Assembly: GCF_014206975.1 (NCBI RefSeq)
Contig: NZ_JACHOU010000008.1
Span: forward strand, 124,001 to 188,000
Length of the DNA: 64,000 nt
Direction of reading: 5' to 3'
DNA from: Aminobacter aganoensis
GTDB lineage: Bacteria; Pseudomonadota; Alphaproteobacteria; Rhizobiales; Rhizobiaceae
Every line of letters starts with the position of its first letter. Positions within the stretch are counted from its first letter, which is position 1. Shown here piece after piece: positions 22,428 through 57,796 of the stretch. Both the position numbers and the translations under genes were made by a program. Below the pieces are notes generated by a model. It ran no database searches and was not told the DNA's origin. It saw only the letters and a list, made by a program, of their open reading frames with translations.

Positions 22428-22533
22428 CTAGAGCAATTCCAGGAAAAGTGTGCAGCGGTTTTCCGTCCGGAATTGCGCAAAAACAAGAGCATAGAGCGTT
22501 TTCGCGTTTCGAAGAAAAGCGGAAACACTCTAG
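22428..22533 (+). repeat. 106-bp CTAG-bounded dispersed repeat, copy 1
   Basis: Begins CTAGAGCAATTCC and ends ACACTCTAG, so the ends are inverted repeats (CTAGAG / CTCTAG). Inside are two imperfect hairpins: GCAATTCC...GGAATTGC with an inner AGGAAAA/TTTTCC, and TAGAGCGTTTTCGC...GCGGAAACACTCTA. It matches copy 2 at 57691-57796 at all but 4 of 106 positions, with no length difference. The right-hand CTAG contains the stop codon of the convergent xth gene. It behaves like a small non-autonomous palindromic element; no transposase is encoded. Confidence 0.9.
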
Positions 22534-23336
22534 TCCAGGTCGAACCGGGCGATGACCGGCACATGGTCCGACGGACGGTCCCAGCCGCGTGCAGCGCTCA
22601 GGATCTCGATGCCAGTCAGCTGCGGCGCCAGGTTGGCCGACGACCAGACATGGTCGAGACGGCGGCCGCGGTTGGAGATCGCCCAGTCCTTCGCCCGGTA
22701 GCTCCACCACGTGTAGATCTTCTGGTCGTCCGGCACGTTGAGCCGCATCAGGTCGACCCAGCCGCCGGCCTTGCGCATCGCCTCGAAATTCTCCGTCTCG
22801 ACCGGCGTGTGGCTGACCACGTTGAGCAACTGCTTGTGCGACCAGACGTCGTGCTCCAGCGGCGCGATGTTCAGGTCGCCGACCAGGACCGAGGCCGACG
22901 TTTCGTCGTGAGCCGCCGGGATGGCATTCATCTCGGCGATGAAATCGAGCTTGTGGCGGAACTTCGCGTTTATCTCGGGATCGGGCTCGTCGCCGCCAGC
23001 CGGCACGTAGAAATTATGCGCCGTCACCTTCTTGCCGCCGACGTCGAACCGCACCGACAGGTGGCGGCTGTCGTCGATTTCGCAGAAACGCCGCTTTTCC
23101 ACAATCTCCAGCGGCCGCCGTGCCACAGTCGCCACGCCATGGTAGCCCTTCTGGCCATGGATCGCGATGTGCTCGTAGCCGAGCTTGCGAAACGCCGCCG
23201 ACGGAAACTGGTCGTCCGGGCACTTGGTTTCCTGCAGGCACAACACGTCGGGCGCGTATTCGTTCAGCAGCCGCTCGACCAGCGGCATGCGCAGGCGCAC
23301 TGAGTTGATGTTCCAGGTGGCGATGGACAAGGGCAT
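22530..23336 (-). CDS. xth: Exodeoxyribonuclease III
   Basis: 268 residues, AP endonuclease and 3'-5' exonuclease of base-excision repair. EEP-fold motifs: SIATWNINSVRLRMP at the start, VLCLQETKCPDDQFP (metal-binding Glu), YVPAGGDEPD, GDLNIAPLEHDVW and the terminal SDHVPVIARFDLD with the catalytic Asp-His. ATG at 23336 matches the family start; the upstream in-frame ATG at 23393 adds an unconserved leader. The stop codon TAG lies inside the right end of the 106-bp repeat. Confidence 0.96.
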   Translation of the reverse strand: MPLSIATWNINSVRLRMPLVERLLNEYAPDVLCLQETKCPDDQFPSAAFRKLGYEHIAIHGQKGYHGVATVARRPLEIVEKRRFCEIDDSRHLSVRFDVGGKKVTAHNFYVPAGGDEPDPEINAKFRHKLDFIAEMNAIPAAHDETSASVLVGDLNIAPLEHDVWSHKQLLNVVSHTPVETENFEAMRKAGGWVDLMRLNVPDDQKIYTWWSYRAKDWAISNRGRRLDHVWSSANLAPQLTGIEILSAARGWDRPSDHVPVIARFDLD

Positions 23337-23456
23337 GGCGGGTTCCGGCACGAAGTTGCCGCGGAACCTGCCAGCAAGGCCAAGCGATGACAAGGCGCGA
23401 AGACGGATGCAGCGCCGGTCGCGGCGCTGTCCACAGCTTAGCCGTGCGGAACGGCG

Positions 23457-24119
23457 TCAGTCGTTCTTCTTTTGCGCGTTGAGTTCGCGGTTGAGCTTGT
23501 AATCGATCTTGAACGTGTCGGCGGCAAACGAACCGCCCTGCTTGACGTTGAACACCATGACGGTGGTGTCTTTGCCCTGCGCGTCGGTGATCGTCCACTG
23601 CCGGAGCTCATAGGTCTTCGGGTCGAACATCATGGTGATGGTCGAATTGCCGAACACCTGCCGGTCGGACAGCTTGATCGTCGTCAGGTCGTCCTCTTCG
23701 GTGACGCTCTTGACCTTGTTGCCGGTGAGATCGATGCGCTCGTCGAGCAGCAGCTTCAACGGCGTCTTCGACAGCGGATAGAGATCGGAGGTCCGCATCT
23801 TGGAGTTCAGGATGACCACTGACTTGCCGTCGGAGATGACCTTGAAATTCGACGGCGCCTCGTAGTTGAATCGGATCTTGCCCGGGCGCTGCAGGAAGAA
23901 CTTGCCGCCCGTCTGCTCGCCACGCGGACCGAACTGCACGAACTCGCCCGACATCGAGCGCACGTTCGAAAAATGGTCGGCGATGCGCTGCGCTGCCTCG
24001 GAAGCCTGCGCCTGGGCCGGGATGGCCTGCAGCGCCATCAGCGGCGTAGCGGTCAGGGCCATCGCTGCCGCGAAGCCGAGCAGGCGCCGGCGGGTCGGGG
24101 TGCGAAAATCGTCGTTCAT
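23457..24119 (-). CDS. lolA: LolA-like outer-membrane lipoprotein carrier
   Basis: 220 residues. Periplasmic chaperone that carries lipoproteins from LolCDE to the outer membrane. The N terminus TPTRRRLLGFAAAMALTA carries a twin-arginine-like or Sec signal ending at AQAQA, near residue 38. The mature part has the LolA half-barrel: HFSNVRSMSGEFVQFGPRGEQ, GKFFLQRPGKIRFNYEAP, then FKVISDGKSVVILNSK and ELRQWTITDAQGKDTTV. It follows ftsK on the same strand with a 118-nt gap, the usual alphaproteobacterial arrangement. Confidence 0.93.
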   Translation of the reverse strand: MNDDFRTPTRRRLLGFAAAMALTATPLMALQAIPAQAQASEAAQRIADHFSNVRSMSGEFVQFGPRGEQTGGKFFLQRPGKIRFNYEAPSNFKVISDGKSVVILNSKMRTSDLYPLSKTPLKLLLDERIDLTGNKVKSVTEEDDLTTIKLSDRQVFGNSTITMMFDPKTYELRQWTITDAQGKDTTVMVFNVKQGGSFAADTFKIDYKLNRELNAQKKND

Positions 24120-24237
24120 GCCGTTACTCTCTCATTCCATTTGGACGGTTCTATCGGCACTTAGTAGGGCTGAAGTTTGACATGGTTCACGCCATGCGCC
24201 CCAGAACGCGAAAACGTGATCGCGGGTTCCCCTGATC

Positions 24238-26889
24238 CTACATCTTGTCGTCTTCGGTCGGCACCAGAATCTCGCGCTTGCCGGCATGATTGGCCGGCCC
24301 GACGATGCCTTCCTTCTCCATCTTCTCGATGATCGAGGCGGCACGGTTGTAGCCGATGCCGAGACGGCGCTGGATATAGCTGGTCGAGGCCTTGCCGTCG
24401 CGCAGCACCACGGCGACCGCCTGGTCGTACGGATCGTCCGAATCCTCGAAATTGCCGCCGCCGCCACCGCCGCCCTTGCCCGACGGCTGGTCGTCCTCGT
24501 CCTCGCCGTCGTCCTCGGTGATCGCGTCGAGATATTCCGGTACGCCCTGCAGCTTGAGATGGGCGACCACCTTCTCGACCTCGTCGTCCGAGACGAAGGG
24601 GCCGTGCACGCGCTGGATGCGGCCGCCGCCGGCCATGTAGAGCATGTCGCCCATGCCGAGCAGTTGCTCGGCGCCCTGCTCGCCCAGGATGGTGCGGCTG
24701 TCGATCTTCGACGTCACCTGGAAGGAGATGCGGGTCGGGAAGTTTGCCTTGATCGTGCCGGTGATGACGTCTACCGACGGACGCTGCGTCGCCATGATGA
24801 CGTGGATGCCGGCGGCGCGGGCCATCTGCGCCAGGCGCTGGACAGCACCCTCGATGTCCTTGCCGGCGACCATCATCAGGTCGGCCATCTCGTCGATGAT
24901 GACCACGATATAGGGCATCGGCTCTAGGTTGAGGTCCTCGGTCTCGTAGATCGCCTCGCCGGTCTGGCGGTCGAAGCCGGTCTGCACGGTGCGCGAGATC
25001 TTCTCGCCCTTCTTGTCGGCGGCAGCCACCCGGGCGTTGAATCCGTCGATGTTGCGCACGCCGACCTTCGACATCTTGCGGTAGCGGTCTTCCATCTCCC
25101 GCACCGTCCATTTCAGCGCCACGACGGCCTTCTTGGGGTCGGTCACGACCGGCGTCAGAAGGTGCGGGATGCCGTCATAGACGGACAGTTCCAGCATCTT
25201 CGGATCGATCATGATCAGCCGGCATTCCTGCGGCGTCATGCGGTAGAGCAAGGACAGGATCATGGTGTTGATCGCCACCGACTTGCCCGAGCCGGTAGTG
25301 CCGGCAACGAGCACGTGCGGCATCTTGGCGATGTCGACGATGACCGCTTCGCCATTGATCGACTTGCCGAGCGCCAGCGCCAGCTTCGACTTGGTCGTCT
25401 CGAAGTCGCGGCTCGCCATGATCTCGCGGAGATAGACGGTCTCGCGCTTGGCATTGGGCAGTTCGATGCCGATGGCGTTGCGCCCCGGCACCACGGCGAC
25501 ACGGGCAGCGATGGCGCTCATCGAGCGTGCGATGTCGTCGGCGAGGCCGATGACCCGGGACGACTTGATGCCCGGCGCCGGCTCGAGCTCGTAGAGCGTC
25601 ACGACCGGGCCCGGGCGGACATGGATGATCTCGCCCTTGACGCCGAAATCTTCCAGCACGCCTTCGAGCAGGCGCGCATTCTGTTCCAGCGCGTCCTTCG
25701 ACAGGCTGGCGTCGCGCGCCACGTTCTTGGGCTCCGAGAGGAAATGCAGCGACGGCATCTCGAAGGTCTCGGAGCCGATCAGCGTCGTCTGCGCCTCGCG
25801 TTGTACGCGTGCGCCGGGGGCAGGCCGCGGTGCCGGCGCCGCGACGCGGGCCGAGGCGGGACCGGCCGAGGCCGGCGTGCGGAAGTTCTGCACCTGCGCG
25901 CCGCCGTCGAGCGAGGGCATGTCGAAATCATCGTCGTCGCCGAACACATCCTGGTCGTCCGGGGCGATCGAGACCTGGCGGTCCTGCGACACCATCTGCG
26001 CGAAGAATTCCGGCTCGACGCGCGCGCGTCCACCCGCGGTCACGCGTGCCTCGGCCCGCTCGGCCGATTCGACGCGCTCGGCGGCCTGGCGCCAGGCGCT
26101 CTCGCGCTTCACCGGCGGCATCTCGTAGCCTTCCTGCTCGCGCCGCTTGGCGGCGCGGCGGCGCATCCAGGCCTTGGCCGACAGCCACCAGTGCGTGATC
26201 GCGCCCAGCGCCAGCACGCCTTCGTTGTCGTCTTCGTCCTCGTCGTCGAAGCTGGCGAAATCCTGCTCGCGCATGTCGGGCTTCGGCTTCGGGTTGACCA
26301 CGGCAAAGCCGTTCTCGCGGTTGAGCAGGCCGGCCCCGAAAGCAAACATCCACAACGCCGGCGCGATCAGCAGCACGCCGATGACGGTGGCGATCAGCCC
26401 GGTCGGATAGCCGCCGATGAACAGCCCCGGCACCTTGAGCACCATGTCGCCGAACACGCCGCCGAGGCCGGTTGGAAGCGGCCAGGTCGGCGGTGCGCCG
26501 ACACAGCCGGCGATCGCCGCCGCCAGCATCGCCGAGCCGAACCAGACCAGGCCGCGCTTGGGCATGCGGTCGACGCCGCGCGCGGTGGCAAACAGCACGC
26601 CCCAGATGACCGCCGGCATGAGGGCTGCCACCGAGGCGAGGCCGAAGAACTGCATGGCGAGGTCGGCAAACACCGCGCCGGGATAACCCATGGCGTTGGT
26701 CACCGGATTGTCGGTGGCGTGGCTGAAACTCGGATCGGCGACGTTCCAGGTGCCGAGCGCTGCCAGCCCGAAGGCAACGAAGGCAAACAGGCCCAACCCC
26801 GCCGCTCGGCCTGCCTGCCGCCGCGCGAATGCCTGGATGCCGTGCCCCGTTTCGGTCAGCGCGAGCGGTGAGGAAACCCCAGAACGCAT
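24238..26889 (-). CDS. ftsK: DNA translocase FtsK
   Basis: 883 residues. Septal dsDNA pump that clears chromosome ends and activates XerCD at dif. The N-terminal ~200 residues contain about four membrane helices ([40 protein letters not shown]). A variable charged linker runs to ~400. The motor has Walker [13 protein letters not shown], Walker [15 protein letters not shown] and [12 protein letters not shown]. The C-terminal gamma winged helix that reads KOPS is [20 protein letters not shown]. All parts are complete. ATG at 26889 starts the protein; 132 nt separate it from the next gene on the same strand. Confidence 0.97.
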
Positions 26890-27021
26890 GCCTCGTCCCC
26901 GTCCAATAATGCCTTGGCCCGGGCGCGGACGCGTCTCGGGCAGATTCGGCTGTCAGACTATCGGGGCGAAGGTTAAGGCCGCATTAAGGTTAAGCCATCG
27001 TTCATCGGGCCGCCCGCAGCC

Positions 27022-27972
27022 TCAGCGGCCGAGCCACGCGCGATCGAACATCTCGACGAGGCGCTGGAAATCCTCGGTGGCGATCTGGTCGACGCCGCCG
27101 TCGCCGCTGCGTTCCAGGAACCTGCGCAGGTGCCCGTCCGCAACTTCGGGCTGGTCGAGCTTGATGCCGAACCGCGCCAGGTCTTCCGTGATCGTCAGGG
27201 CCGGATCGAGATAGCCGTCGGCCGCGCTCGCCTGCGTCTCCGGCTGCTTCAGCCGCACCAGCACGGCGCGCGTCGCCGACGGCTGGGATTCCGGGCCGAG
27301 CACCGTGGTGCCCGTCAGATATCCGCCAAGCACGCTGCCCGGCGGCGAGAACGGAAACAGCGCGAAGAAGAAATGTGTGTCGTCACCTGCTCCGCCGACA
27401 TGGATGTAGACACCGCGCCGCGTCACCGTCACCTGGCCCTTGCGCTGCAGGCGCATCGTCGGGAGCTGCTCGGAATAGGTCGCCGTCAGACGCTGCGGCC
27501 CGTGCTCCTGTTCGATCACCAGCGTCCCGCGGATGAGCTGGCCGCGAAAATAGGGCGACCAGCTGTGCGAATAGCAGGCATAGCGGCCGACGATCGTGGC
27601 GCCACTGTCGTCCAGTCCGTGCAACTGGGGCTTGCCGAAGGCCGCCGCCCTCCGCTCGAGCTGCTGGCGGTTCTTGCCGTGGTGGTCGCAAATCTGGCCG
27701 ACGAAGGTTTCCAGGTCGCAGTCGACGATCCAGTCAGCCGGCTGCGGCAGGTCCAGCAGCCTGATCCAGTCTTCATAGACGCTGAACTGTCTAGGCCTTG
27801 ATCGACCCTGCAGCCACTTGTCTGCACGGTCGACATCGAATGCGGTCGTCGGGTTGATCCGCCTGAAAGCCGCCGCCAAGTCCTTACGTGTCGCAGCACC
27901 GACAAAAGCTGCGGTCAGGCGCAGCTTCCGGTCAATATTCATTCCAAGAAATCTCCCAAGCCCCAGCGGCAT
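27022..27972 (-). CDS. Conserved protein of unknown function with HTH-like N terminus
   Basis: 316 residues (or 306 from ATG at 27942, which has GGGAG 10 nt upstream). I do not recognise a named family. Residues ~11-75 (LRLTAAFVGAATRKDLAAAF, then DVDRADKWLQGRSRPRQFSV and DWIRLLDLP) look like a helical DNA-binding or adaptor domain resembling XRE-type packing. The middle part (GLDDSGATIVGRYACYSHSW, GTLVIEQEHG, RRGVYIHVGGAGDD) is beta-rich, and the C terminus is helical. No signal peptide or membrane segment. It follows the small gene at 28220 in opposite orientation. The long upstream ORF extension is not supported. Confidence 0.75.
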   Translation of the reverse strand: MPLGLGRFLGMNIDRKLRLTAAFVGAATRKDLAAAFRRINPTTAFDVDRADKWLQGRSRPRQFSVYEDWIRLLDLPQPADWIVDCDLETFVGQICDHHGKNRQQLERRAAAFGKPQLHGLDDSGATIVGRYACYSHSWSPYFRGQLIRGTLVIEQEHGPQRLTATYSEQLPTMRLQRKGQVTVTRRGVYIHVGGAGDDTHFFFALFPFSPPGSVLGGYLTGTTVLGPESQPSATRAVLVRLKQPETQASAADGYLDPALTITEDLARFGIKLDQPEVADGHLRRFLERSGDGGVDQIATEDFQRLVEMFDRAWLGR

Positions 27973-28219
27973 ATTTTCTTCTTTGCCGCCGAAAGCAAGG
28001 CATGTCGGGAACTTCCCGGAAATTCCACAGTGTTCCAGCCATTCCATATCCGTTGCATTTACACTGCCATCAGCCTGCGAGATCGTCCGCTCGCACGGTC
28101 GGGCATTGTCGCCGGGGGGCGCCAGACTGCTCGATGACGCGGGCCATAGGCCCAAGCCGGGTTCCGGCTTGGGCCGGCGCCGCGTGTCCCCGCTTTCGGC
28201 ACTGGAAGGGCGCAAACTC

Positions 28220-28429
28220 ATGCAAGGCGATGCGATCCAGCTACGGCAGCCTGCCGATGGCAGTCCCAAGGCTGCCTTCCGGCGTTCATACCTCGCCAAC
28301 GTCTTCCGGCGCGCCCTCGCGCTGTTCCCGTCGACACGGTCGCATCCCCAGGAGCACGCCGACGGCCTCGAAGCCTTTGACATGCTCGGTGGCTGGCAAG
28401 GCTCGGACCGGAAGCAGCGCAAACGCTAG
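28220..28429 (+). CDS. Small hypothetical protein
   Basis: 69 residues, basic at both ends, containing RRSYLANVFRRALALFPSTR and HADGLEAFDMLGG. Third codon positions are strongly GC-rich and GGAAGG lies about 10 nt before the ATG, which supports coding. The longer antisense ORF (extension of the 27022 gene) has no such character. No family recognised. It is divergent from the unknown HTH-like gene. Confidence 0.5.
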   Translation: MQGDAIQLRQPADGSPKAAFRRSYLANVFRRALALFPSTRSHPQEHADGLEAFDMLGGWQGSDRKQRKR

Positions 28430-28568
28430 CCGGCGGTAAAGATCTCCACCCCGGACGCCTCCTGCGCCTGCCTTTGGGCGCAGCCCCTCCTGCTCGCCGC
28501 TCAATTGATGCAACCATGCCGGCCTTGGGCCGTTGGTACGGCGAGGGACGCAACCAAGGAGAAGCAGA

Positions 28569-28820
28569 ATGAGAAAGCTCGTTTTGGCTTTGGGTGCCGC
28601 GGCACTCATGACAGGTGCAGCTTGGGCCGCCTCGGCCGACGGCGTCGTCAAGGAGTTCAATAAGGACACCCGCGTCGTCACGATGGAAGACGGCAAGAGC
28701 TACACCGTGCCGGCTGACGTGGCACTGCCGGCCGATCTGGCAGCCGGCATGAAAGTCACGGTCACGACGGCCGACGACGATGCCACAAAGGTTACAGCAC
28801 TGACGATGTCCGCGATGTAG
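28569..28820 (+). CDS. DUF1344-like small periplasmic protein
   Basis: 83 residues with a signal peptide (RKLVLALGAAALMTGAAWA, cut near residue 20). The mature part is a small beta-barrel-like domain: SADGVVKEFNKDTRVVTMED, GKSYTVPADVALPADLAAGM and KVTVTTADDDATKVTALTM, which is the DUF1344 pattern of rhizobial exported proteins. AAGGAG stands 7 nt before the ATG at 28569. A strong terminator follows 26 nt after the stop. Monocistronic. Confidence 0.85.
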   Translation: MRKLVLALGAAALMTGAAWAASADGVVKEFNKDTRVVTMEDGKSYTVPADVALPADLAAGMKVTVTTADDDATKVTALTMSAM

Positions 28821-28846
28821 CGCATGTTGCAGGCCTGATCTCTGGA

Positions 28847-28875
28847 AACCCCGCTCCATCCGAGCGGGGTTTTTC
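28847..28875 (+). terminator. Rho-independent terminator of the DUF1344 gene
   Basis: Perfect 10-bp stem AACCCCGCTC / GAGCGGGGTT with a 5-nt loop and a T-run immediately after. Confidence 0.9.
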
Positions 28876-28959
28876 CGTTCCGGCAGGCCGATACGGGCTT
28901 GCCGCGGCATCGGCACCGCCATACCTTTGTATATTAGCGAAAACTAAAAGGAGGCAACG

Positions 28960-29379
28960 ATGAAGCACCATAGCATCGAGCAATTGCAAGCCTTCGCTGA
29001 AGTCCGTCCCGCCAGCCCGCACCTGCCGATGACGCGAACCGAGCGCCTCGAACGCTGGGCCGAGCTTCTCGAGCGCGAGCCGGAACGGCGCCTCGGAACG
29101 CTTTCGGGCACGGAGTACACGCCGCGCGCCGCACGGCAGGCGCTGCGCGTCGCGGGCTCCCCCATCACCGTGGCATTCGAAGACGCGGGCTTCCGGGCCG
29201 ATGGCCTGGCCGACGACAGCTATGGCGAGGCAAAGCGCTTTTTCGACTTGTCCGACAGGCAACTGCACAACATCGTTTGCTACTGCCACTTCGGCGAAGC
29301 GGTGAGAGGTGCCAATGCCGCCCGCCGCGTGCGCGCAGCGATCGGCTGGTGGCCGCGGATACGGGCGTTTTTCGCCTGA
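28960..29379 (+). CDS. Conserved hypothetical protein
   Basis: 139 residues, soluble, no signal peptide. It has a strong ribosome-binding site (AAAAGGAGG before the ATG) and an AT-rich promoter-like stretch upstream (TTTGTATATTAGCG). Sequence features are TRTERLERWAELLEREPERR, SPITVAFEDAGFRADGL and a C-terminal basic segment ending WWPRIRAFFA. I recognise it only as a rhizobial conserved hypothetical. It is convergent with amtB and shares its terminator region. Confidence 0.75.
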   Translation: MKHHSIEQLQAFAEVRPASPHLPMTRTERLERWAELLEREPERRLGTLSGTEYTPRAARQALRVAGSPITVAFEDAGFRADGLADDSYGEAKRFFDLSDRQLHNIVCYCHFGEAVRGANAARRVRAAIGWWPRIRAFFA

Positions 29380-29397
29380 GCTGGTGCGCACGGCATG

Positions 29398-29427
29398 AAA
29401 AAAGAGGGCCCGGATTGCTCCGGGCCC
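29398..29427 (-). terminator. Rho-independent terminator of glnK-amtB
   Basis: Read on the minus strand: GGGCCCGGA / TCCGGGCCC 9-bp stem with a 4-nt loop, then CT and a run of six T. It lies about 80 nt after the amtB stop. Confidence 0.85.
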
Positions 29428-29507
29428 AAGGCGCGGGCGCCTTTCGGGCGGCCACGACGGGATAGGGAGGATGCGGCGCCGGATCTGAGATCCGCCGCCG
29501 ACCGGGA

Positions 29508-30890: not shown

Positions 30891-30920
30891 TGAGGTCTCC
30901 ATGAGAATTGGTTGGCCGGC

Positions 30921-31265
<345 letters not shown>

Positions 31266-31346
31266 TCACCCCTTTCTGATGCGGGTCCCCCGCGATTGCA
31301 GACGTCGCCGGCGGACCCGAAAGCCACCGGTGAGTGCAATACGGGA

Positions 31347-31363
31347 TTCAAGCTCCGTGCCAG
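31347..31363 (-). promoter_or_regulatory. Sigma-54-like promoter of glnK-amtB
   Basis: On the minus strand CTGGCACGGAGCTTGAA, compared with the RpoN consensus YTGGCACG-N4-TTGCW: the -24 box is perfect and the -12 box has TTGA for TTGC. Position about 75-90 nt before the glnK start and the function of the operon both fit NtrC/RpoN control. No convincing NtrC site was seen upstream. Confidence 0.6.
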
Positions 31364-31481
31364 TTTGCGCAGGCAGGAGATAAACCACTGAAATTCAAGT
31401 GAAATTCCAAACGGACAAGCAGCATCCCGAGCAGATGCCGCAAGGCACCTGCTTACAGAGTGTGCAGAATCTCTGAAATGC

Positions 31482-32354: not shown

Positions 32355-32446
32355 GCTTTCCCCTTTTCGGGACGAAGTATCCCCGGTTTCCATCAGGAAG
32401 CCCCTGTCGAGTCAAGGCAGGAAGCCTAGCCGCAAAGGACACCGCC

Positions 32447-41462: not shown

Positions 41463-41463
41463 G

Positions 41464-49591: not shown

Positions 49592-49597
49592 TCGGGG

Positions 49598-49611
49598 TAT
49601 CCGTTTGGATA
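49598..49611. promoter_or_regulatory. Candidate HxlR operator TATCC-N4-GGATA
   Basis: Perfect 5-bp dyad in the 64-bp divergent region between the HxlR gene and the NTF2-like gene. The site is the size expected for a dimeric winged-helix regulator. Confidence 0.5.
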
Positions 49612-49655
49612 GTTCTGGAACGGCATGTTTTGCTCGCCAAAACAGGAGAAAGCCA

Positions 49656-50057
49656 ATGTCATCGCCAATGTCATCGAAAGTCTACCGGCCTGCCGACATG
49701 AACAAAACCTTCGCCGCCATGCGCAACAGTGGCGATGTCGGGGCTATGCTGGAGCTCTACGAGGAAGGCAGTCAGTTGCTGGTCGATGCCAGCGGCTCCG
49801 GCTTCACCGGCAAGGCCGCGATCGCCGAGGAGCTTGAACGGCTGGTGCGCATGCCGGGCAAGATGACGTCCAAGAACACCTTCTGCGTCGAGCACGGTAA
49901 CCTGGCGCTGCTGCGCGCCGATTTCGCAATCGTCAATGAGGAAGGCGTGACCCTCTATTCCGGCTTCACCGCCGAGATTCTGCGCAAGCAGGCCGACGGC
50001 GCATGGCTCTATGTCGTCGACCACGCCGGCGCCAGCCGCTACGGAGTGGACGCTTAG
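49656..50057 (+). CDS. NTF2/SnoaL-like protein
   Basis: 133 residues from ATG 49656 (AGGAG 8 nt before). Fold marks: FAAMRNSGDVGAMLELYEEG, SQLLVDASGSGFTGKAAIAE, LALLRADFAIVNEEGVTLYS and GAWLYVVDHAGASR. This is the cone-like NTF2 fold of the DUF4440/SnoaL group, used for isomerases, hydratases or stress binding proteins. A second ATG lies at 49668. It is divergent from HxlR, which probably regulates it; the substrate is unknown. Confidence 0.85.
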   Translation: MSSPMSSKVYRPADMNKTFAAMRNSGDVGAMLELYEEGSQLLVDASGSGFTGKAAIAEELERLVRMPGKMTSKNTFCVEHGNLALLRADFAIVNEEGVTLYSGFTAEILRKQADGAWLYVVDHAGASRYGVDA

Positions 50058-50102
50058 CCGGCAGCTTGCCGTCTCCGCCGCGAAGCGGAGACGGCAGCGC
50101 AA

Positions 50103-50900
50103 TCACTGGCCCATCTTGTAGTCGAGGAACCACTTCTTGTTCATCGCGTCGAACGTGCCGTCGGACTTCAGCGCGGCGATCGCCGCGTTGATCGGGGCAA
50201 CGAGGTCCGAGCCCTTCTTGAAGATGAAGCCGAAATCCTCGCTGCCCAGCGGCTCGCCCACCACCTTGAGCTTGCCTTCCGAGGCGTCGACATAGCCCTG
50301 GGCGGCGACGCTGTCGGTCAGCACCAGGTCGACGTCGCCGGCCTTGAGCGCCTGCACGGTGGCCCCAAAGGTCTCGAAGAGCTTGATGCGCGGGTTCTGC
50401 TCGTTGCCGTCGAGGATCTCGTAGACGGCGGTGTAGAACGGCGATGTGCCCGGCTGTGCCGCGATCAGTCCGTCCTTGAGGGCGCCGAAGCTCTTGGCGT
50501 CGGTGAAGCGGCTCTCGTCGGCGCGCACCAGCATGAACTGCTGCGAGCGCATGTAGGGATCGGAGAAATCGACCTTTTCCTTGCGGTCGTCCTTGATGGT
50601 GATGCCCGTCATGCCGACCTGGTACTGGCCGTCCGACACCGCCTGGATCATCGCGTCCCAGCTGGTGTTCTGGTACTCGATCTTGAAGTTCAGCCGCTTG
50701 GCGATCTCGTCCATCGCGTCATATTCCCAGCCGATCTGCTTGCCGGTCTTGGGATCGACGAACTGCAGCGGCGGATAGGCGTTCTCGGTCACCACCACCA
50801 CCGTCTTGCCGCCGAGGTCGGGCAGGCTCTGGGCCTGGGCGGCGAAGGGCGAAAGAACGAGGGCGAGAGCGCCGGCAAGCGCGAGCTTGAGATGGTTCAT
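50103..50900 (-). CDS. Amino-acid ABC transporter substrate-binding protein
   Basis: 265 residues, SBP family 3. Signal peptide LKLALAGALALVLSPFAAQA (cut near residue 23), then VVVVTENAYPPLQFVDPKTG, GWEYDAMDEIAKRLN, YQVGMTGITIKDDRKEKVDF, DLVLTDSVAAQGYV and the C-terminal IAALKSDGTFDAMNKKWFL. It binds a polar amino acid or related ligand in the periplasm. It is 37 nt from the convergent NTF2-like gene; the permease at 48420 is the probable partner on the other side of the HxlR/NTF2 pair. No ATPase in the window. Confidence 0.93.
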   Translation of the reverse strand: MNHLKLALAGALALVLSPFAAQAQSLPDLGGKTVVVVTENAYPPLQFVDPKTGKQIGWEYDAMDEIAKRLNFKIEYQNTSWDAMIQAVSDGQYQVGMTGITIKDDRKEKVDFSDPYMRSQQFMLVRADESRFTDAKSFGALKDGLIAAQPGTSPFYTAVYEILDGNEQNPRIKLFETFGATVQALKAGDVDLVLTDSVAAQGYVDASEGKLKVVGEPLGSEDFGFIFKKGSDLVAPINAAIAALKSDGTFDAMNKKWFLDYKMGQ

Positions 50901-51080
50901 GGTCAGTTCCCCGAAAACACAGGACCGGCGGCGCCGGTCGTTTGCGCCAGACTTTAGCTCGCCGCGGGCCGCATGCAAGCAGGCGCCATGCCTCGCGCAT
51001 GGAAGAACTGGAATTCCATCCCCCCGAAACGCAAAAGGGCGACCGAAGCCGCCCTTTCGAAAATCATGAAGTGCCGGAGA

Positions 51081-51632
51081 TTATTCGGCTGCAGGCTCGG
51101 CGGCGGCTGCCTCAGCTGCCTTGGCGGCCTCGTCTGCTGCCTTCTTCTCGGCTGCTTCCTGGGCGGCCTTCTCGGCGGCCAGGGCCTGGGCGGCTGCGAC
51201 CTTCTCGGCCTCGATGCGAGCCTTCTCGGCGTTGGCTGCCTCGCGCTCGGCGTCGTTCAGCTTGCGGGCGCGCACGCCGGTGTTCTCGACGATACGAGCC
51301 GACTTACCGCGGCGATCGCGCAGGTAGTACAGCTTGGCGCGACGGACCTTGCCGCGGCGGACGATCTCGACGCCCTCGATCATCGGCGAGTAGACCGGGA
51401 ACACACGCTCCACGCCTTCGCCATAGGAGATCTTGCGGACGGTGAAGTTTTCCTGGAAGCCCGAGCCGGCGCGGGCGATGACGACGCCTTCATATGCCTG
51501 CACGCGGGTGCGCGAACCTTCTGTGACGCGGACCAGAACGCGCACGGTGTCGCCTGGCTGGAATTCCGGCAGGGTGCGCTTGGCTTCGATCTTGGCGGCC
51601 TGTTCGGCCTCGAGCTGGCGGATGATATCCAT
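51081..51632 (-). CDS. rplS: 50S ribosomal protein L19 with long C-terminal tail
   Basis: 183 residues; the L19 core is about the first 115 ([78 protein letters not shown]). From about residue 120 the chain is a charged Ala/Glu/Lys helix ([19 protein letters not shown]...AAAEPAAE), longer than in E. coli (115 aa total) but seen in other alphaproteobacteria. L19 sits at the 30S-50S interface. Normally directly after trmD; here 1.9 kb of other genes intervene. Confidence 0.96.
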
Positions 51633-51798
51633 CTCAACTATCCACTTCTTGTTCTTCCGACAGCCAGAGCGCCCGCGCTCGCCTTGCAGTTCCAATGACC
51701 GCTCGGATATGCCTTGTTCCCTCGCGGGCCTTCCGGCAGGGGCGACTACACCGTCACTGTTGACGGGTCCGGTCGATTATTCGTCCGGTTCGGGCGGG

Positions 51799-51827
51799 CA
51801 CATACCGCTATTTCAGCCATTTGTCAC
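51799..51827 (-). promoter_or_regulatory. Candidate rplS promoter
   Basis: Minus strand GTGACA (51822-51827), 17-nt spacer, TATGTG (51799-51804), about 165 nt before the rplS start. The 345-bp gap 51633-51977 otherwise shows no gene; a promoter here is needed because rplS is detached from trmD. Confidence 0.35.
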
Positions 51828-51977
51828 GCCTTTGCCGCGTCTTTTTTGCGCGCCTCGCGTGCTGTCGCCGCTATCGGGAGCTTGGACCACATGGCTGCCA
51901 TCGGCAAGCCATGGCTTGCATCGCCGGCCCGGGCTTCCTACAGACCCCATGGCGCAGCGTATCGGAGCAGGCAACCC

Positions 51978-52733
51978 GTGACCTTCATCACAGTCGTGAT
52001 CCTCTTTGTCGCGGGCTTTTTGTCGGGCGTGGTCAACGCCATTGCCGGCGGCGGCACGTTCCTGACCTTCGGCGCGCTGACGATGGCCGGCCTGCCGCCG
52101 ATCTCCGCCAATGCGACGTCGTCGATCGCCCAATTCCCCGGCTACATCACCTCGACCTGGGCCTACATCAAGGACATCCGCCTGATGTGGCGCGGCGCGC
52201 TTGCTTTCGCCGTCATCTCGGCCGTCGGCGCCCTCATCGGCTCGCTGTTCCTGCTTTCGCTCGACAATGTCTCTTTCGGCGCGCTGGTGCCGTGGCTGCT
52301 GCTCGCAGCAACCGCGCTGTTCGCCGCCGGTCCCTGGCTTCGTCCGGCAAAGCTCGCCGATCGGCCCGAAGGTGCGCCGTCGTCGCTCACCGGCCGCATC
52401 GTCCAATTCTTCACCGCGATCTATGGCGGCTTCTTCGGCGCCGGCATGGGCGTCATGATGCTGGCGACGCTTGGCCTGACCGAAGGCGGCGACTACCACC
52501 GCCTCAATGCGCTGAAGAACATGCTCTCCATCGTCATCGCCGCGGTCGCCATCGTCATCTTCGCCTCGGGCGGCGTCGTCGCCTGGACGGCAGCGGCGGT
52601 CATGGTGCCCGGCGTCGCGCTCGGCGGCTATGCCGGCGTCTGGACCGCCCGCCGCGTGCCGCAGTCCATCGTCCGCGCGCTCGTAGTCGCCATCGGCCTG
52701 TTCCTGGCGTTCTATTATTTCACCAGGGGCTGA
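51978..52733 (+). CDS. TauE/SafE-family anion exporter
   Basis: 251 residues from GTG 51978 (GGAG about 10 nt before). Eight helices in two repeats; each repeat opens with the family motif: GFLSGVVNAIAGGGTFLTFG near the N terminus and IYGGFFGAGMGVMMLATLGL near residue 145. LNALKNMLSIVIAAVAIVIF follows. It exports sulfite, sulfoacetate or other organosulfur or carboxylate anions; substrate unknown. It is oriented against the rim-trm-rpl cluster and lies between rplS and higBA. The upstream ORF extension (from 51714) is unconserved. Confidence 0.92.
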   Translation: MTFITVVILFVAGFLSGVVNAIAGGGTFLTFGALTMAGLPPISANATSSIAQFPGYITSTWAYIKDIRLMWRGALAFAVISAVGALIGSLFLLSLDNVSFGALVPWLLLAATALFAAGPWLRPAKLADRPEGAPSSLTGRIVQFFTAIYGGFFGAGMGVMMLATLGLTEGGDYHRLNALKNMLSIVIAAVAIVIFASGGVVAWTAAAVMVPGVALGGYAGVWTARRVPQSIVRALVVAIGLFLAFYYFTRG

Positions 52734-52757
52734 CCAGCCGGCCAGGCTCGCTGAACC

Positions 52758-52806
52758 TTCCCAATTCGGGAAATTTCTTGTTCCCAAATTGGGAAACGGC
52801 TATATG
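52758..52806 (+). promoter_or_regulatory. higBA promoter with two palindromic operators
   Basis: Palindromes TTCCCAATTCGGGAA (52758-52772) and TTCCCAAATTGGGAA (52781-52795), centres 23 bp apart. Promoter -35 TTGTTC (52778-52783), 17-nt spacer, -10 TATATG (52801-52806). The second palindrome fills the spacer, so bound HigA would exclude RNA polymerase. The predicted start falls at the GTG of higB. Confidence 0.75.
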
Positions 52807-52811
52807 AAGAC

Positions 52812-53108
52812 GTGCAGATATTGAGCAGGAAGACGCTGCGTGACTTCTGGGAGAAACACCCCCAGGCGCAGCGTCCGCTCACCGCTTGGTATCAGGCCGC
52901 AAGCGTCGCTGTTTGGTCGGGCCCAGCCGACATCAAGGGCGCGTTCGGCGCGAGCGTGGACTTTGTCGCCGACAACCGTGTGGTCTTCGACATTGCCGGC
53001 AACAAATACAGGCTGGTCGTGCATGTTAGCTATACGTTCAGACGTGTGTTGATCAAATTTGTCGGGACCCATGCCGAGTACGACAAGATAGACGTGGAGA
53101 AGGTGTGA
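52812..53108 (+). CDS. higB: HigB-type mRNA interferase toxin
   Basis: 98 residues, RelE superfamily. ILSRKTLRDFWEKHPQAQRP near the start, then FDIAGNKYRLVVHVSYTFRR and VLIKFVGTHAEYDKID, the C-terminal block with the catalytic Tyr/Asp region. It cleaves mRNA on the ribosome. The start is GTG 52812; no Shine-Dalgarno precedes it and the mapped -10 box ends 5 nt upstream, which predicts a leaderless message. Its TGA overlaps the ATG of higA by one base; the toxin is first, as usual for hig. Confidence 0.93.
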   Translation: MQILSRKTLRDFWEKHPQAQRPLTAWYQAASVAVWSGPADIKGAFGASVDFVADNRVVFDIAGNKYRLVVHVSYTFRRVLIKFVGTHAEYDKIDVEKV

Positions 53109-53545
53109 TGGACAACATTCGACCCATCCGCAATGACGCAGACCTCGAATGGGCCATCTCAGAAGTAGCCCGCTACTTCGAGCATGAGCCCGAACCGGGC
53201 AGCGCCGATGCGGAACGCTTCGACGTGCTGTCGACACTCATCGAGGCTTACGAAGACAGGCACCATCCGATCGAGATTCCGGACCCGGTCACCGCCATCG
53301 TCGCTCATATGGAGATGCGGGGTCTGAAGCAGCGCGACCTCGCCGTCGTCCTTGGATCGGCATCGCGCGCGTCTGAGATCGTCAACCGCAAGCGTATGCT
53401 CAATGTCGACATGATCCAGCGGCTTCACGCGCAGTGGAAGATGCCGGCAGAGGCGCTGATTCAGCCCTACCACCTCGCAGCGCCAGACACTCGCGCGGTG
53501 AGAAAGCCGTCAAAACGTTCGGCGGCGGCGGTCCACAAGTCGTAG
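53108..53545 (+). CDS. higA: HigA-type antitoxin
   Basis: 145 residues. N-terminal ~65 residues bind the toxin (DADLEWAISEVARYFEHEPE, LSTLIEAYEDRHHPI). The XRE-type HTH is IVAHMEMRGLKQRDLAVVLG with SASRASEIVNRKRMLNVDMI. It neutralises HigB and represses the promoter at 52758. GGAGAAGGTG precedes the ATG. The C-terminal tail is basic. Convergent with trmD, 10 nt apart. Confidence 0.93.
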   Translation: MDNIRPIRNDADLEWAISEVARYFEHEPEPGSADAERFDVLSTLIEAYEDRHHPIEIPDPVTAIVAHMEMRGLKQRDLAVVLGSASRASEIVNRKRMLNVDMIQRLHAQWKMPAEALIQPYHLAAPDTRAVRKPSKRSAAAVHKS

Positions 53546-53555
53546 GGCACCGCCT

Positions 53556-54275
53556 TCAGCTCTTGTGTTGCGCCCACAAATCCGGCCGCCGCTCCTTCGT
53601 CAGCCTCTCCGCCTCGGCGCGGCGCCATTTGGCGATCTTGCCGTGGTTGCCCGAGGTCAGCACTTCGGGGATGGCAACACCCTCGAATTCCTGAGGCCGG
53701 GTGTAGTGCGGATGCTCCAGCAATCCGCCCTCGAAGCTCTCTTCTTCGCCCGAAGTCTCGTTGCCCATCACGCCGGGCAAAAGCCGCACCACGGCGTCGA
53801 GCAGCACCAGCGCCGCGGGCTCTCCGCCAGAAAGGATGAAATCGCCGACCGAGATCTCTTCCAGCCCGCGCGTGTCGATCACCCGCTGGTCGACGCCTTC
53901 GAAGCGGCCGCACAGGATCACCGCGCCCGGCCCGGCCGCCAGTTCGCGCACCCGCTCCTGTGTCAGCGGCCTGCCGCGCGGGCTCATCAGGATGCGTGGT
54001 CGCGCGTCGCCCTCGGGCGAGGCATGGTCGATCGCCTTGGCCAGAATGTCGGCACGCATCACCATGCCAGCGCCACCACCTGCAGGCGTGTCGTCCACGG
54101 TGCGATGCTTGTCGGCGGCGAAATCGCGGATCTGCACCGCCTCCAGCGCCCAGTCGCCCCGCTCCATCGCCCGCCCCGCCAGGGAAACCCCCAGCGCGCC
54201 CGGAAACATCTCCGGATAGAGCGTCAGGACAGTTGCCCGAAACCCGGGCAAATTCTTCTCATCATCTCCCGACAC
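53556..54275 (-). CDS. trmD: tRNA (guanine-37-N1)-methyltransferase
   Basis: 239 residues. Makes m1G37 in tRNAs reading CNN and similar codons, preventing +1 frameshifts; essential in most bacteria. SPOUT-knot signatures: [73 protein letters not shown] and [15 protein letters not shown]. The start is GTG 54275, 2 nt after the hicB stop, so in this arrangement it depends on transcripts that also carry hicAB. Confidence 0.97.
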
Positions 54276-54277
54276 GA

Positions 54278-54694
54278 TCAGCCGCGCGCCTTTCGTTTTT
54301 CTTCTCTCTCGATCTCGTGCTTGGCGGCGACCGCCAGAAAGCCCGAGCGCGTATAACCCGATTGCTGCGCAAACAGGTCGATCTGCTTGAGCACGTCCTC
54401 GGAGAAGGTCACGTTGACGCGAATGGAGCGCTGGTCGAGCGGCGGAGCTTTGACCAGCACAGCAACGCCGTCGCGGTTTTCGGCGACGCCCATCACATCC
54501 TCCAGTGACGTCGGCTCGGGAATTGGCTCACCGTCCTCCATCATGCCTTCGATATGCAGCGCCAAGGCCTCTTCGGCGCCGGCACGCGCTTCATCGAGCG
54601 TCGGACCAGCCGACACGCAACCCGGAAAGTCGGGGAACGATACGCCGTAGTCGCTGTCGGCGTCCTTGTGGATGAGGGCAATGTAGTTAGCCAT
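54278..54694 (-). CDS. hicB: HicB-type antitoxin
   Basis: 138 residues. The N-terminal HicB fold: [59 protein letters not shown]. The C-terminal DNA-binding part is ribbon-helix-helix-like ([20 protein letters not shown] and [18 protein letters not shown]). It inhibits HicA and should repress the site at 54886. One base separates it from hicA and 2 nt from trmD. Confidence 0.94.
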
Positions 54695-54695
54695 G

Positions 54696-54884
54696 CTATT
54701 TCAGCCTGATCCCGGATTGTTTCTCGATGCTGCGCAGCGTGCCCAGGGGAATTTCCCTTTTAGGATCCGGCACGGTGACCCTGCCTTTCTTGACAGGATG
54801 CTTGAACTGGACGTGGCTGCCTTTGCGCGCCACCTCAAGCCAGCCGTCCGCAACAAGCAGTCTGATCACCTCACGGCTGCGCAT
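54696..54884 (-). CDS. hicA: HicA-type mRNA interferase toxin
   Basis: 62 residues, the usual size. dsRNA-binding-like fold with the catalytic His: REVIRLLVADGWLEVARKGS, then HVQFKHPVKKGRVTVPDPK and REIPLGTLRSIEKQSG. The GSHVQFKHP motif is the HicA signature. ATG 54884 lies one base from an 18-bp palindrome. First gene of hicA-hicB-trmD. Confidence 0.94.
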   Translation of the reverse strand: MRSREVIRLLVADGWLEVARKGSHVQFKHPVKKGRVTVPDPKREIPLGTLRSIEKQSGIRLK

Positions 54885-54885
54885 G

Positions 54886-54903
54886 ATGTGTATCTATACA
54901 CAT
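54886..54903 (-). promoter_or_regulatory. hicAB operator/promoter
   Basis: ATGTGTAT-CT-ATACACAT: perfect 8-bp arms with a 2-nt centre, just before the hicA ATG. On the minus strand it contains TATAGA, a possible -10, with CTTGAA 16 nt further up as a weak -35. HicB binding here would cover the promoter. Confidence 0.7.
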
Positions 54904-54940
54904 AGCGACCGCAGTTCAAGATCATCGAAGTCTGATCCGA

Positions 54941-55543
54941 CTAGCGATTGCCCCCGGCGTCCTTCGGTCCGCGCGGCCGGGCCTTGTGCTCGAACTCGCC
55001 GTCGGATGGCGCGTTCTCGTCGTCTTCGTCCTCGACAAGCCCGGCCGCCACCGTATCGATGGCGACGAAGCCGCCGGCGATGTCGACCACCGGAACCGCC
55101 GCTTGCGTGAAGGGTATCAGCACGCCCTTGCGGTCCTGGTACTGGATTTCGAGGATGTCGCCGCCGCCGAAATTCTGCACGGCAAACACCTTGCCGACCG
55201 GCTCACCGGTCTCGTCGCGCACGACAAGCCCGACAAGGTCGGTGTGGTAGAACTCGCCCTCCTCGCCATCGTCGGGCAGGGCCGAGCGGTCGACGAACAA
55301 CTCGGTATTGGTCAGGGCCTCGGCGGCATTGCGGTCGTTGACGCCCTTGAAGCGCACCACCACCACCTCGTTGGCCGGCCGGATCGCGGCAATCTCGAAG
55401 GCGCGGCCGTCCTTGGCGTAAAGCGGGCCGTAGTCGGCCAGCGCCAGCGGATCGCCGGTGAAGGTCTTCACCCTGAGTTCGCCCTTGATGCCGTGGGCAG
55501 CGCCGATCACGGCCATCTGGATTGGATTTTGGGGTCTGGCCAT
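54941..55543 (-). CDS. rimM: Ribosome maturation factor RimM
   Basis: 200 residues. Assists assembly of the 30S head around S19. N-terminal barrel: VIGAAHGIKGELRVKTFTGD, PLALADYGPLYAKDGRAFEI, GVNDRNAAEALTNTELFVDR. C-terminal PRC barrel: YHTDLVGLVVRDETGEPVGK, GGGDILEIQYQDRKGVLIPF. The tail beyond residue 175 is acidic then basic (DEDDENAPSDGEFEHKARPR). First gene of the rimM-(hicAB)-trmD group; rpsP is not upstream, where xerC diverges instead. Confidence 0.95.
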   Translation of the reverse strand: MARPQNPIQMAVIGAAHGIKGELRVKTFTGDPLALADYGPLYAKDGRAFEIAAIRPANEVVVVRFKGVNDRNAAEALTNTELFVDRSALPDDGEEGEFYHTDLVGLVVRDETGEPVGKVFAVQNFGGGDILEIQYQDRKGVLIPFTQAAVPVVDIAGGFVAIDTVAAGLVEDEDDENAPSDGEFEHKARPRGPKDAGGNR

Positions 55544-55614
55544 TGCCTGCGCTTCACCGGTTGCTAACTTCGCTCGTTCAACACTGCCTTATTCCAATCG
55601 GACGCCGACTGCCA

Positions 55615-56553
55615 ATGCAGGAATTCCTCATCGCTGCAAAACCCGACCTCCAGGCGGCCCGCCAGGGCTGGCTGAAGTCGCTGGCCGGCGAACGCCGCCT
55701 GTCGGCACTGACGGTCGATGCCTACGAACGCGACACGCGCCAGTTCCTGCAATTTCTCACCGGCCATTGCGGCGGCCCGCCCGGCATCTCCGACATCAGC
55801 GACCTCCGCCCGGCCGACCTGCGCGCCTATCTCGCCGCCCGCCGCACTGATGGGGCCGGCCCCCGCACGCTTGGCCGCGGCCTTGCCGGGGTGCGCTCGC
55901 TGCTGCGTTTCCTCGAACGCCAGGGACTGGTCAATGCTGCCGGCTCTGCGGCGCTGCGCGCGCCAAAACAGCCAAAATCGCTGCCCAAGCCGCTCACCGC
56001 GATCGATGCCAGGCGTGTCGTTTCGGCCGGCGAGCAATTGGCGGAGGAGCCCTGGATCGCCGCCCGCAACGCCGCCGTGCTCACCTTGCTCTACGGCTCG
56101 GGCCTGCGCATTTCCGAAGCGCTCAATCTATCCGGAACCGAGCTCGCTTCGCCCTCCGACACCGTGCTGCGCATATCGGGCAAGGGCGGCAAGACCCGCC
56201 TCGTCCCGGTCCTGCCGGTGGCCCTGCAGGCTGTCGCCGAATACCGCAAGCTCTGCCCATATCATCTCGATGCCGAAGGCGCGCTCTTTCGCGGCGCCCG
56301 CGGCGGCCGGCTCGACCCGGCGATCGTCCAGCGCGAGATGCGCAAGATGCGCTCAGCCTTGAATCTGCCTGACACGGCGACGCCGCATGCGCTGCGCCAC
56401 TCCTTCGCCACCCACCTGCTCGGTCGTGGCGGCGACCTGCGCACCATCCAGGAACTGCTCGGCCACGCCAGCCTGTCGACCACCCAGGTCTATACCGGCG
56501 TCGACACCGCACGCCTGCTGGAGGTCTACGACGCCGCGCACCCCCGCGCCTGA
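55615..56553 (+). CDS. xerC: Tyrosine recombinase XerC
   Basis: 312 residues. Resolves chromosome dimers at dif with XerD, under FtsK control (ftsK is 29 kb to the left). The N-terminal SAM-like domain is GWLKSLAGERRLSALTVDAY. Catalytic set: Arg in YGSGLRISEALNL, Lys in GKGGKTRLVPV, HxxR in TPHALRHSFATHLLG, His in LLGHASLSTTQVYTGVD, with the Tyr nucleophile in VYTGV. ATG 55615 gives the normal length. XerC rather than XerD is judged from sequence style (GSGLRISEAL) and is moderately sure. Confidence 0.92.
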   Translation: MQEFLIAAKPDLQAARQGWLKSLAGERRLSALTVDAYERDTRQFLQFLTGHCGGPPGISDISDLRPADLRAYLAARRTDGAGPRTLGRGLAGVRSLLRFLERQGLVNAAGSAALRAPKQPKSLPKPLTAIDARRVVSAGEQLAEEPWIAARNAAVLTLLYGSGLRISEALNLSGTELASPSDTVLRISGKGGKTRLVPVLPVALQAVAEYRKLCPYHLDAEGALFRGARGGRLDPAIVQREMRKMRSALNLPDTATPHALRHSFATHLLGRGGDLRTIQELLGHASLSTTQVYTGVDTARLLEVYDAAHPRA

Positions 56554-56617
56554 CCTCGCGAGGCTGACAATTGTCACTGCGGCATTAACCGTTTTGCCGC
56601 TTTTGGCGGCTACACAA

Positions 56618-57694
56618 ATGCCCATGACACGTCTCACCGCCCTTGCCGACCGCGCCTCGTTGCCCGCGCTGAAGCTGCTCGCAGCACTCAACGTGCTGTT
56701 CTTCGTCCTGTTCTTCGCCGTCGCGTTTCTGTTCGCCGGCAAGGCCCATGCCGAAGCGCCCGTCTGCACCGGCTCCGACATCCTGGCGGAACTCGCCAAG
56801 GACAGCCCGGCGGTTCTGGCCAGGATCGAGACCGAGGCCAAGGCCACGCTGAACGGCCAGGGCCTGTTGTGGAAGCTGGAAAAGCCCGGCCAGAAGCCGT
56901 CATGGCTCTACGGCACCATGCATGTCACTGATCCGCGCGTCACCAAGCTCCAGCCCGAGGCGCAGAAGGCCTTCGACGGCTCGCACACTTTGGTCATCGA
57001 AACCACCGATGTGCTCGACCAGAACGCCATGGTCGCCAGCCTGATGAAGCAGCCCGAACTGATGATGTTCACCGACAGCACGACGTTGCCGTCGCTGATG
57101 TCCCCGGAAGAACTCGAAACCGTCAATGCCGCACTCGAAGCACGCGGCATCCCGCCGGCAAGCGTCTCCAAGATGAAGCCGTGGATGCTGTCGTCCATGG
57201 TCGCGCTGCCGGCCTGCGAGCTGACCCGCAAAGCCGCCGGCGCGCCGGTGCTCGACATCCTCATCGCCCAGCAGGCCAAGGCCGCCGGCAAGGAGGTCAA
57301 GGGGCTGGAGAGCGCCGCCGACCAGCTTTCGGCCATGGCCTCGCTGCCGATCGAGTTCCACATCAAGGGCCTTGTCGAGACCCTCAAGCTCGGCAACCGC
57401 ATGGACGACGTCATCGAAACCATGGTCGTGCTCTACCAACGCGGCGACACCGGCATGTTCTGGCCGCTGTTCCGCAATGCCCTGCCATCCGGCGGCTCCG
57501 ACGATTCCGGCTACGCCGCCTTCGAGGAAACGATGGTGACGACGCGCAACAAGACCATGGCCGAGCGCAGCGCACCTCTCGTCGCCCAGGGCGACGTGTT
57601 CATGGCCGTCGGCGCACTGCACCTGCCCGGCCCCGAAGGCCTGGTCGAGCTGTACCGCAAGGCCGGCTACACCGTCACTGCTGCCGACCGCTAG
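56618..57694 (+). CDS. TraB/GumN-family protein
   Basis: 358 residues. A membrane/signal segment (ALKLLAALNVLFFVLFFAVA) near residue 30, then the TraB domain: LLWKLEKPGQKPSWLYGTMHVTDPR in pieces, including the conserved GTMH, the Glu in LVIETTD, and the C-terminal VGALHLPGPEGLVELYRKAG with the second GxxH. These are the metal-binding GxxH motifs of the Tiki/TraB/EreA protease fold; most bacterial members have no tested function. Its TAG stop is the first CTAG of the 106-bp repeat copy 2. Follows xerC by 64 nt. Confidence 0.9.
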   Translation: MPMTRLTALADRASLPALKLLAALNVLFFVLFFAVAFLFAGKAHAEAPVCTGSDILAELAKDSPAVLARIETEAKATLNGQGLLWKLEKPGQKPSWLYGTMHVTDPRVTKLQPEAQKAFDGSHTLVIETTDVLDQNAMVASLMKQPELMMFTDSTTLPSLMSPEELETVNAALEARGIPPASVSKMKPWMLSSMVALPACELTRKAAGAPVLDILIAQQAKAAGKEVKGLESAADQLSAMASLPIEFHIKGLVETLKLGNRMDDVIETMVVLYQRGDTGMFWPLFRNALPSGGSDDSGYAAFEETMVTTRNKTMAERSAPLVAQGDVFMAVGALHLPGPEGLVELYRKAGYTVTAADR

Positions 57695-57796
57695 AGCAAT
57701 TCCAGGAAAAGTGTGCAGCGGTTTTCCGTCCGGAATTGCGCAATAACAAGAGCTTAGAGCGTTTTCGCGATTCGAAGAAAAGCAGAAACACTCTAG
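57691..57796 (+). repeat. 106-bp CTAG-bounded dispersed repeat, copy 2
   Basis: Same length and order as copy 1 (22428-22533) with four substitutions. Both terminal CTAGs hold stop codons: TAG at 57692-57694 ends the TraB-family gene, and CTA at 57793-57795 is the stop of the DUF2867 gene on the other strand. The whole space between the two convergent genes is thus the element. It can form two stem-loops and may act as a bidirectional 3' end. Confidence 0.92.

Follow-up and report, generated by a model that had tools for sequence, protein, structure and literature searches.

The 64,000-nucleotide stretch of Aminobacter aganoensis DNA considered here (the window) contains two copies of a short element, each 106 bp long, which are 96.2% identical (four mismatches) and carry CTAG at all four ends (Table 1). 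They were first described in an earlier note made from the letters of this DNA alone, whose coordinates, lengths and ends for both copies proved correct; the two stem-loops that it assigned to each copy also appear in both when they are folded as RNA, with plus-strand z-scores against dinucleotide shuffles of -5.25 for copy 1 and -2.76 for copy 2. No Rfam family matches the window at the gathering score. As the same note had pointed out, three of the four ends serve as stop codons, namely of a TraB-family gene (left end of copy 2), of a convergent DUF2867 gene (right end of copy 2) and of an xth-like gene (right end of copy 1), all of which have Pfam matches. The remaining end, on the left of copy 1, is not the stop of any gene, and the frame there is open for 16 codons.

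Table 1. Coordinates in the window of the two element copies, their parts, and the genes that adjoin them
Feature	Position	Strand	Remark
Element copy 1	22428..22533	+	element proper 22431-22530 (100 bp) if TA is the target duplication
Left TA, copy 1	22429..22430	.	putative target duplication; no gene stop
First stem-loop, copy 1	22431..22478	+	starts with the left terminal repeat GAGCAATTCCAGG
Second stem-loop, copy 1	22492..22532	+	right terminal repeat at its end (GAGTGTTTCCGC as reverse complement; consensus in the genus GAGCRTTTCCGC)
Element copy 2	57691..57796	+	element proper 57694-57793 (100 bp)
TAG stop, xth-like gene	22530..22532	-	right TA (22531-22532) plus terminal base of the element (22530)
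TAG stop, TraB-family gene	57692..57694	+	left TA plus first G of the element
TAG stop, DUF2867 gene	57793..57795	-	right TA plus terminal base of the element
Cyclic-nucleotide-binding-domain gene	21822..22277	+	PF00027, 65 bits; convergent with the xth-like gene across copy 1
xth-like gene (exonuclease/endonuclease/phosphatase family)	22530..23393	-	PF03372 (Exo_endo_phos), 95 bits; consistent with xth
TraB/PrgY/gumN-family gene	56387..57694	+	PF01963, 247 bits
DUF2867 gene	57793..58263	-	PF11066, 119 bits

The genome to which the window belongs is a draft assembly (5.76 Mb, 52 contigs), in which the element has at least nine matches, five of them 105-106 bp long. The search of this genome that the earlier note had recommended bears out its expectation beyond chance: all 10 ends of the five full-length copies are CTAG, and at seven of them the TAG closes a frame that is open over 168 codons or more. 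Elsewhere in the genus, matches occur in nine of the 10 genomes, with at least 45 in the richest one. Of 72,556 plasmid records, 477 have matches, at 2240 places in all, and an inner 34-mer of the element occurs in 61 stretches of named genomes, chiefly of Mesorhizobium and Rhizobium. The element, which has two palindromes, is thus an intergenic rhizobial repeat, which we take to be the Rhizobium-specific intergenic mosaic element (RIME), on the basis of its description rather than its sequence. RIME was reportedly described by Osteras, Stanley and Finan in 1995 as a unit of about 108 bp with two palindromes, repeated in the intergenic DNA of Rhizobium and Sinorhizobium; the plasmid distribution of our element (274 and 146 of the 477 records, respectively) fits this account. 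We know of no connection of RIME with IS630 or with stop codons, and a search of openly licensed papers, mostly at the level of titles and abstracts, found no literature linking it to either or setting out the mechanism proposed below, which is no proof of novelty. According to the part of PMC2573895 available to us, such intergenic repeats are present in rhizobia by the dozen and their function is unknown.

Parts of the element also occur in other arrangements. A relative of the same genus carries the left half alone (about 53 bp) three times in tandem (G003:C1:714737-714906), and its 34-base core is repeated three times at a spacing of 57 bp in Sinorhizobium psoraleae (L189, 2495-2642); these tandems are a mosaic of half-units. 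In the window, a separate repeat adjoins copy 1 at 22308-22358: a 1306-bp query around copy 1 gave 35 own-genome matches, versus nine with the element alone, and one of the 35 has 94% identity over 22308-22358. A mechanically called open reading frame (ORF) of 334 codons (22299-23303, plus strand) runs through copy 1 without a stop.

To place the ends in a wider context we used a set of 85 copies, comprising the five full-length copies of the window genome and 80 copies from seven related genomes, i.e. 80 of the 82 best-scoring matches outside the window genome (the two skipped are G001:C1:1508799 and G003:C13:845, the second of which lies close to the start of a contig). The set leaves out lower-scoring and half-length matches, and the ends played no part in the choice. 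Nine orthologous duplicates were removed for the stop classes, the orientation, the background comparison and a recount of base changes, which left 76 copies. A frame was called coding-like if it was open for at least 80 codons and its GC content at the third codon position (GC3) exceeded 0.70, with GC3 > GC1 > GC2, and an offset of +1 denotes the terminal TA plus the next base, i.e. a terminal TAG or TAA. Coding-like frames stop exactly at this offset at 58 of the 170 ends; the next most frequent offset accounts for six, and no frame stops at any offset from +4 to +111. Of the 76 deduplicated copies, 49 lie on a stop, 25 are intergenic and just two fall within a coding-like frame. The remaining CTAG sites of the window and of the fetched flanks, counted once per locus, are distributed quite differently: 32 of 217 are on a stop, 100 are intergenic and 85 coding. 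The excess of the element at stops persists against the non-coding CTAG sites alone (stop versus intergenic, p = 4e-9).

A second set, chosen solely by the inner 34-mer, shows the same peak, with 18 of 71 ends at +1 and at most two at any other offset; right ends were tested for just 10 of its 63 copies, two left ends lay too close to an edge, and three loci (L205, L228 and L238) are from genomes that also contributed to the first set. We opened 14 of the 20 plasmid matches listed, four of which carried no annotation, and in four of the remaining 10 regions (two of which, H11 and H12, look like the same site) a gene ends exactly at the end of the element, always with TAG, one of these genes being a hypothetical of 66 codons. 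In one further region the annotated gene end lies 4 bp outside the element, and in five no gene end coincides with it.

Relatives that lack the element show what its sites may have looked like. Both window sites are empty in all nine other genomes, in the stretches read after the TraB and xth stops. At the site of copy 2, the TraB gene of these relatives stops at the same codon, with CTGA in seven genomes, a single CTAG in G009 and CTAA in G005. In the last of these, the closest relative, one CTAA closes the TraB frame as well as the DUF2867 frame, a 4-bp overlap of the convergent genes. At the site of copy 1, the xth stop is likewise in the same place, with CTGA in eight genomes and CTAA in G007, and in G009 both flanks are retained around an empty TCAG. 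One of the five full-length copies of the window genome, and only that one, was seen filled in the relatives compared: L002 and L106 represent a single insertion common to the window genome and G003, the outer base being C in one and G in the other.

The comparison was extended to 20 stop-ended copies, first 12 with CTAG at both ends and then eight with a non-CTAG stop end. BLAST matches of fewer than 70 bases were excluded, as were some with lower scores, and the rows obtained for one site are related and hence not independent. An empty relative was found for 18 of the 20 copies and for two there was none. In 79 of the 100 empty rows the gene stops at the same codon, and 47 of these 79 stops are TAG or TAA, compared with 54 of 181 among ordinary flank genes. 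Counted per site (n = 18), TAG or TAA is present in at least one relative at 15 sites and CTAG at 12. The single CTAG that the earlier note predicted for empty sites does occur, e.g. at L259 (98.5% identity over the entire 204-bp joined flank), the clearest pair being L094 (in G003) and the empty site of G001, with a single CTAG and 98.5% identity over 204 bp; however, only 26 of the 79 same-codon stops are CTAG, which speaks against the earlier note by its own refuting conditions.

Which bases are duplicated upon insertion can be judged from the ends themselves. CTAG is found at the left end of 44 and at the right end of 47 of the 85 copies, which leaves 79 of the 170 ends without it and likewise goes against the refuting conditions of the note; the deviations look like the decay of one end or like an altered stop in a relative. 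Among the 114 ends with an intact TA, the outer base is not C in 20 cases and the inner base is not G in three (p = 0.0005), and the same asymmetry is seen in 104 ends after removal of orthologous duplicates (17 versus three, p = 0.003). As the inner base is nearly fixed and the outer base variable, the former is part of the element, and what is duplicated is TA. Two copies, L030 and L115, combine a TTAG where the gene stops with a CTAG at the opposite end, and some empty relatives of each also have TTAG (the others have CTAG, ATAG, GTAG, TTAA or TGA stops), as a TA duplication would allow; most empty sites fit the duplication of TA and of CTAG equally well. The idea in the earlier note of a mobile element that targets CTAG at gene ends thus stands in part, since the element looks like a mobile one, prefers CTAG and very often sits at stops, but the 4-bp duplication that came with this idea is disfavoured by the base changes and the TTAG sites: the target is TA within a preferred CTAG, and the inner G on the left and C on the right are the element's own.

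Duplication of TA is a feature shared with elements of the IS630 / Tc1-mariner type, for one of which, ISY100, it has been demonstrated in vitro (PMC2170065, seen in part). An IS630-associated transposon prefers TA within CTAG, to judge from the title of Tenzen and Ohtsubo 1991, as cited in PMC2170065. The IS630-type transposase domain PF13358 has matches in four of 10 genomes of the genus and in 82 of 151 of the family. From 55 IS630-type loci read, 50 ends (25 loci) could be compared with the consensus end of our element, and they agree with it at 5 to 12 of the first 12 bases: 18 of the 50 match at nine or more positions, with one at 12, seven at 10 and ten at nine. The best one, at L150, reads CTA followed by GAGCGTTTCCGC and is, over 12 bases, the same as one variant of the right-end consensus of the element. 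A stricter scan of the 55 loci gave TA-bounded terminal repeats in 32, typically CTA followed by GAGC; the outer flanks form CTA...TAG in 15 of these and differ on one or both sides in the other 17, all of which lie beside TA. The element contains no transposase gene, is 105-106 bp long, exists in multiple similar copies and has terminal inverted repeats that resemble IS630 ends, albeit only one end of the best insertion sequence (IS). It therefore looks like an IS630-type miniature inverted-repeat transposable element (MITE). From the IS630-type insertion sequences it differs in its size of 100 bp and its missing transposase gene, and the IS630 relatives found here have ends similar to its own.

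Taken together, we regard it as very probable that the element is a RIME-type MITE moved by an IS630-type transposase, which inserts at TA within CTAG and for which stop codons are a safe harbour where copies accumulate. This reading draws on the anatomy of the ends and their likeness to IS630 ends, on the coincidence with stops, and on element-free relatives that stop at the same codon. According to it, an IS630-family transposase would act in trans and insert the element at a TA, preferably one within CTAG, with duplication of the TA alone. The outermost bases of the element would be G at the 5' and C at the 3' side, giving N-TA-G at the left junction and C-TA-N at the right one. Given this terminal G and the duplicated TA, insertion into a TAG or TAA stop leaves a TAG stop and an unchanged protein, and at the right junction a TAG would likewise be rebuilt on the opposite strand. 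Convergent genes that share a 4-bp stop overlap would both retain their stops and come to lie about 100 bp apart. TGA stops, which contain no TA, cannot be targets. Since CTAG is scarce (24 occurrences in the window versus 66 expected from trinucleotides) and a large share of its occurrences fall within coding sequences, in which an insertion does harm, stops constitute a natural safe harbour; the excess over other non-coding CTAG sites would then presumably be due to the loss of harmful copies.

Several observations weigh against this scenario. The ends that deviate from CTAG are numerous, and the contrast between outer and inner bases becomes weaker once duplicates are removed. In the window, no relative has CTAG at the site of copy 1, and seven of nine have CTGA at that of copy 2; at L130, all eight relatives have TGA. 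None of the relatives of L125 and L105 has its stop at the corresponding codon, and at L022 only two of six do. In the case of L105 (1500-1605) the relatives stop one or two codons later, and a new stop, ahead of the old one, seems to have come from the end of the element and to have removed the last codons. As regards the transposase, the window genome has no match to PF13358, although in a 52-contig draft a repeat may have collapsed, and no parent IS was found among the IS630 loci read: a single end reaches 12 of 12, and both the partner end and the inner sequence of L150 are not close to the element. Finally, the IS5-type control described below is limited to the 10 of 30 loci that gave TA-flanked end repeats.

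A different reason for the coincidence with stops, compatible with the proposed mode of insertion, is that the element is retained by selection at the 3' ends of genes, where its two hairpins would end or protect the mRNA and insulate convergent genes. The stop:intergenic ratios of 49:25 for the copies and 32:100 for other CTAG sites suit this explanation, as do the stable folds on both strands and the proximity of genes: 71 of the 76 copies lie within 250 bp of the end of a coding-like gene that points towards them from one side or both, and for 38 this applies to both sides. Full-length IS630 copies, presumably younger, are on stops in only nine of 32 cases (with a looser GC3 cut of 0.65), below the rate of the element, which hints that the excess of the latter arose through loss elsewhere or through a benefit at stops. 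Yet the scan for intrinsic terminators found no terminator-like site inside either copy, the lone match near copy 1 (stem at 22405-22420) lying outside the element. Covariation in the stems is weak (a double change in three of 30 pairs), the orientation towards the gene shows no significant bias (28 copies with a gene on the left only versus 18 on the right only, p = 0.18), and the orthologs of both window sites manage without the element. The compact bidirectional 3' end envisaged by the earlier note accords with the enrichment at stops, which harmless insertion would explain too, and finds no counterpart in the terminator scan. We consider retention by selection possible but rather unlikely, and we are similarly doubtful about the broader view of a Rhizobiaceae-wide family with stop codons as its main niche, many copies of which would now stand as 3' gene boundaries held by selection.

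An IS5-type origin of the element, with duplication of the entire 4-bp CTAG, is improbable. Such a system has a precedent in MITEPsy1 of Pseudomonas syringae, a 100-nt MITE at CTAG or YTAA, which it duplicates over 4 nt; however, its ends (GGAAGG...) differ from those of our element, and it may derive from the IS5-type ISPsy2 (PMC3189936, in the part available). CTAG is present at both ends in 25 of the 85 copies, and most of the IS5-type elements detected have CTA as their left flank (the scan itself required TA flanks). Nevertheless, the ends of IS5-type relatives (PF13340) in the same family match the element at no more than seven of 12 positions (20 ends from 10 of 30 loci), which disfavours IS5-type parentage, and neither the rarity of inner-base changes nor the copies that combine TTAG at one end with CTAG at the other agree with a 4-bp duplication. 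That the coincidence with stops is due to chance, or to the calling of long GC-rich frames as genes, is a negligible concern: most tests do rely on the frame-length and GC3 rule, and GC-rich DNA abounds in spurious open frames (243 ORFs of at least 100 aa in the 64-kb window), but that rule yields a sharp peak at the element ends (58 versus six at the next offset) and only 32 of 217 other CTAG sites, and the annotated plasmid genes (four of 10 regions), the Pfam-matched window genes and the element-free orthologs (79 of 100 rows at the same codon) agree with it.

In terms of systems already described, an IS630-transposase-moved element that inserts into TA is of a known kind, namely an IS630-type MITE like RUP, the repeat unit of pneumococcus, an intergenic repeat of 107 bp with ends like those of IS630-Spn1 and TA-containing insertion sites (PMC2229807, seen in part). 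The two are likened by description and occur in different hosts; in the portion of that text available, RUP is said to target regions of IS elements, and no stop-codon niche is described for it.

For the rhizobia, our results would mean that a widespread repeat, whose function is unknown in print, gains a likely route of movement, via an IS630-type transposase and TA within CTAG, together with a simple rule for where it settles. They suggest that the choice of target and one terminal base can suffice to render a transposon harmless at the ends of genes. If the proposed mechanism is true, insertion at TAG and TAA stops would be self-repairing, and copies of the element would part convergent genes whose stops formerly overlapped; the role of such repeats as working 3' ends of genes thereby becomes testable.

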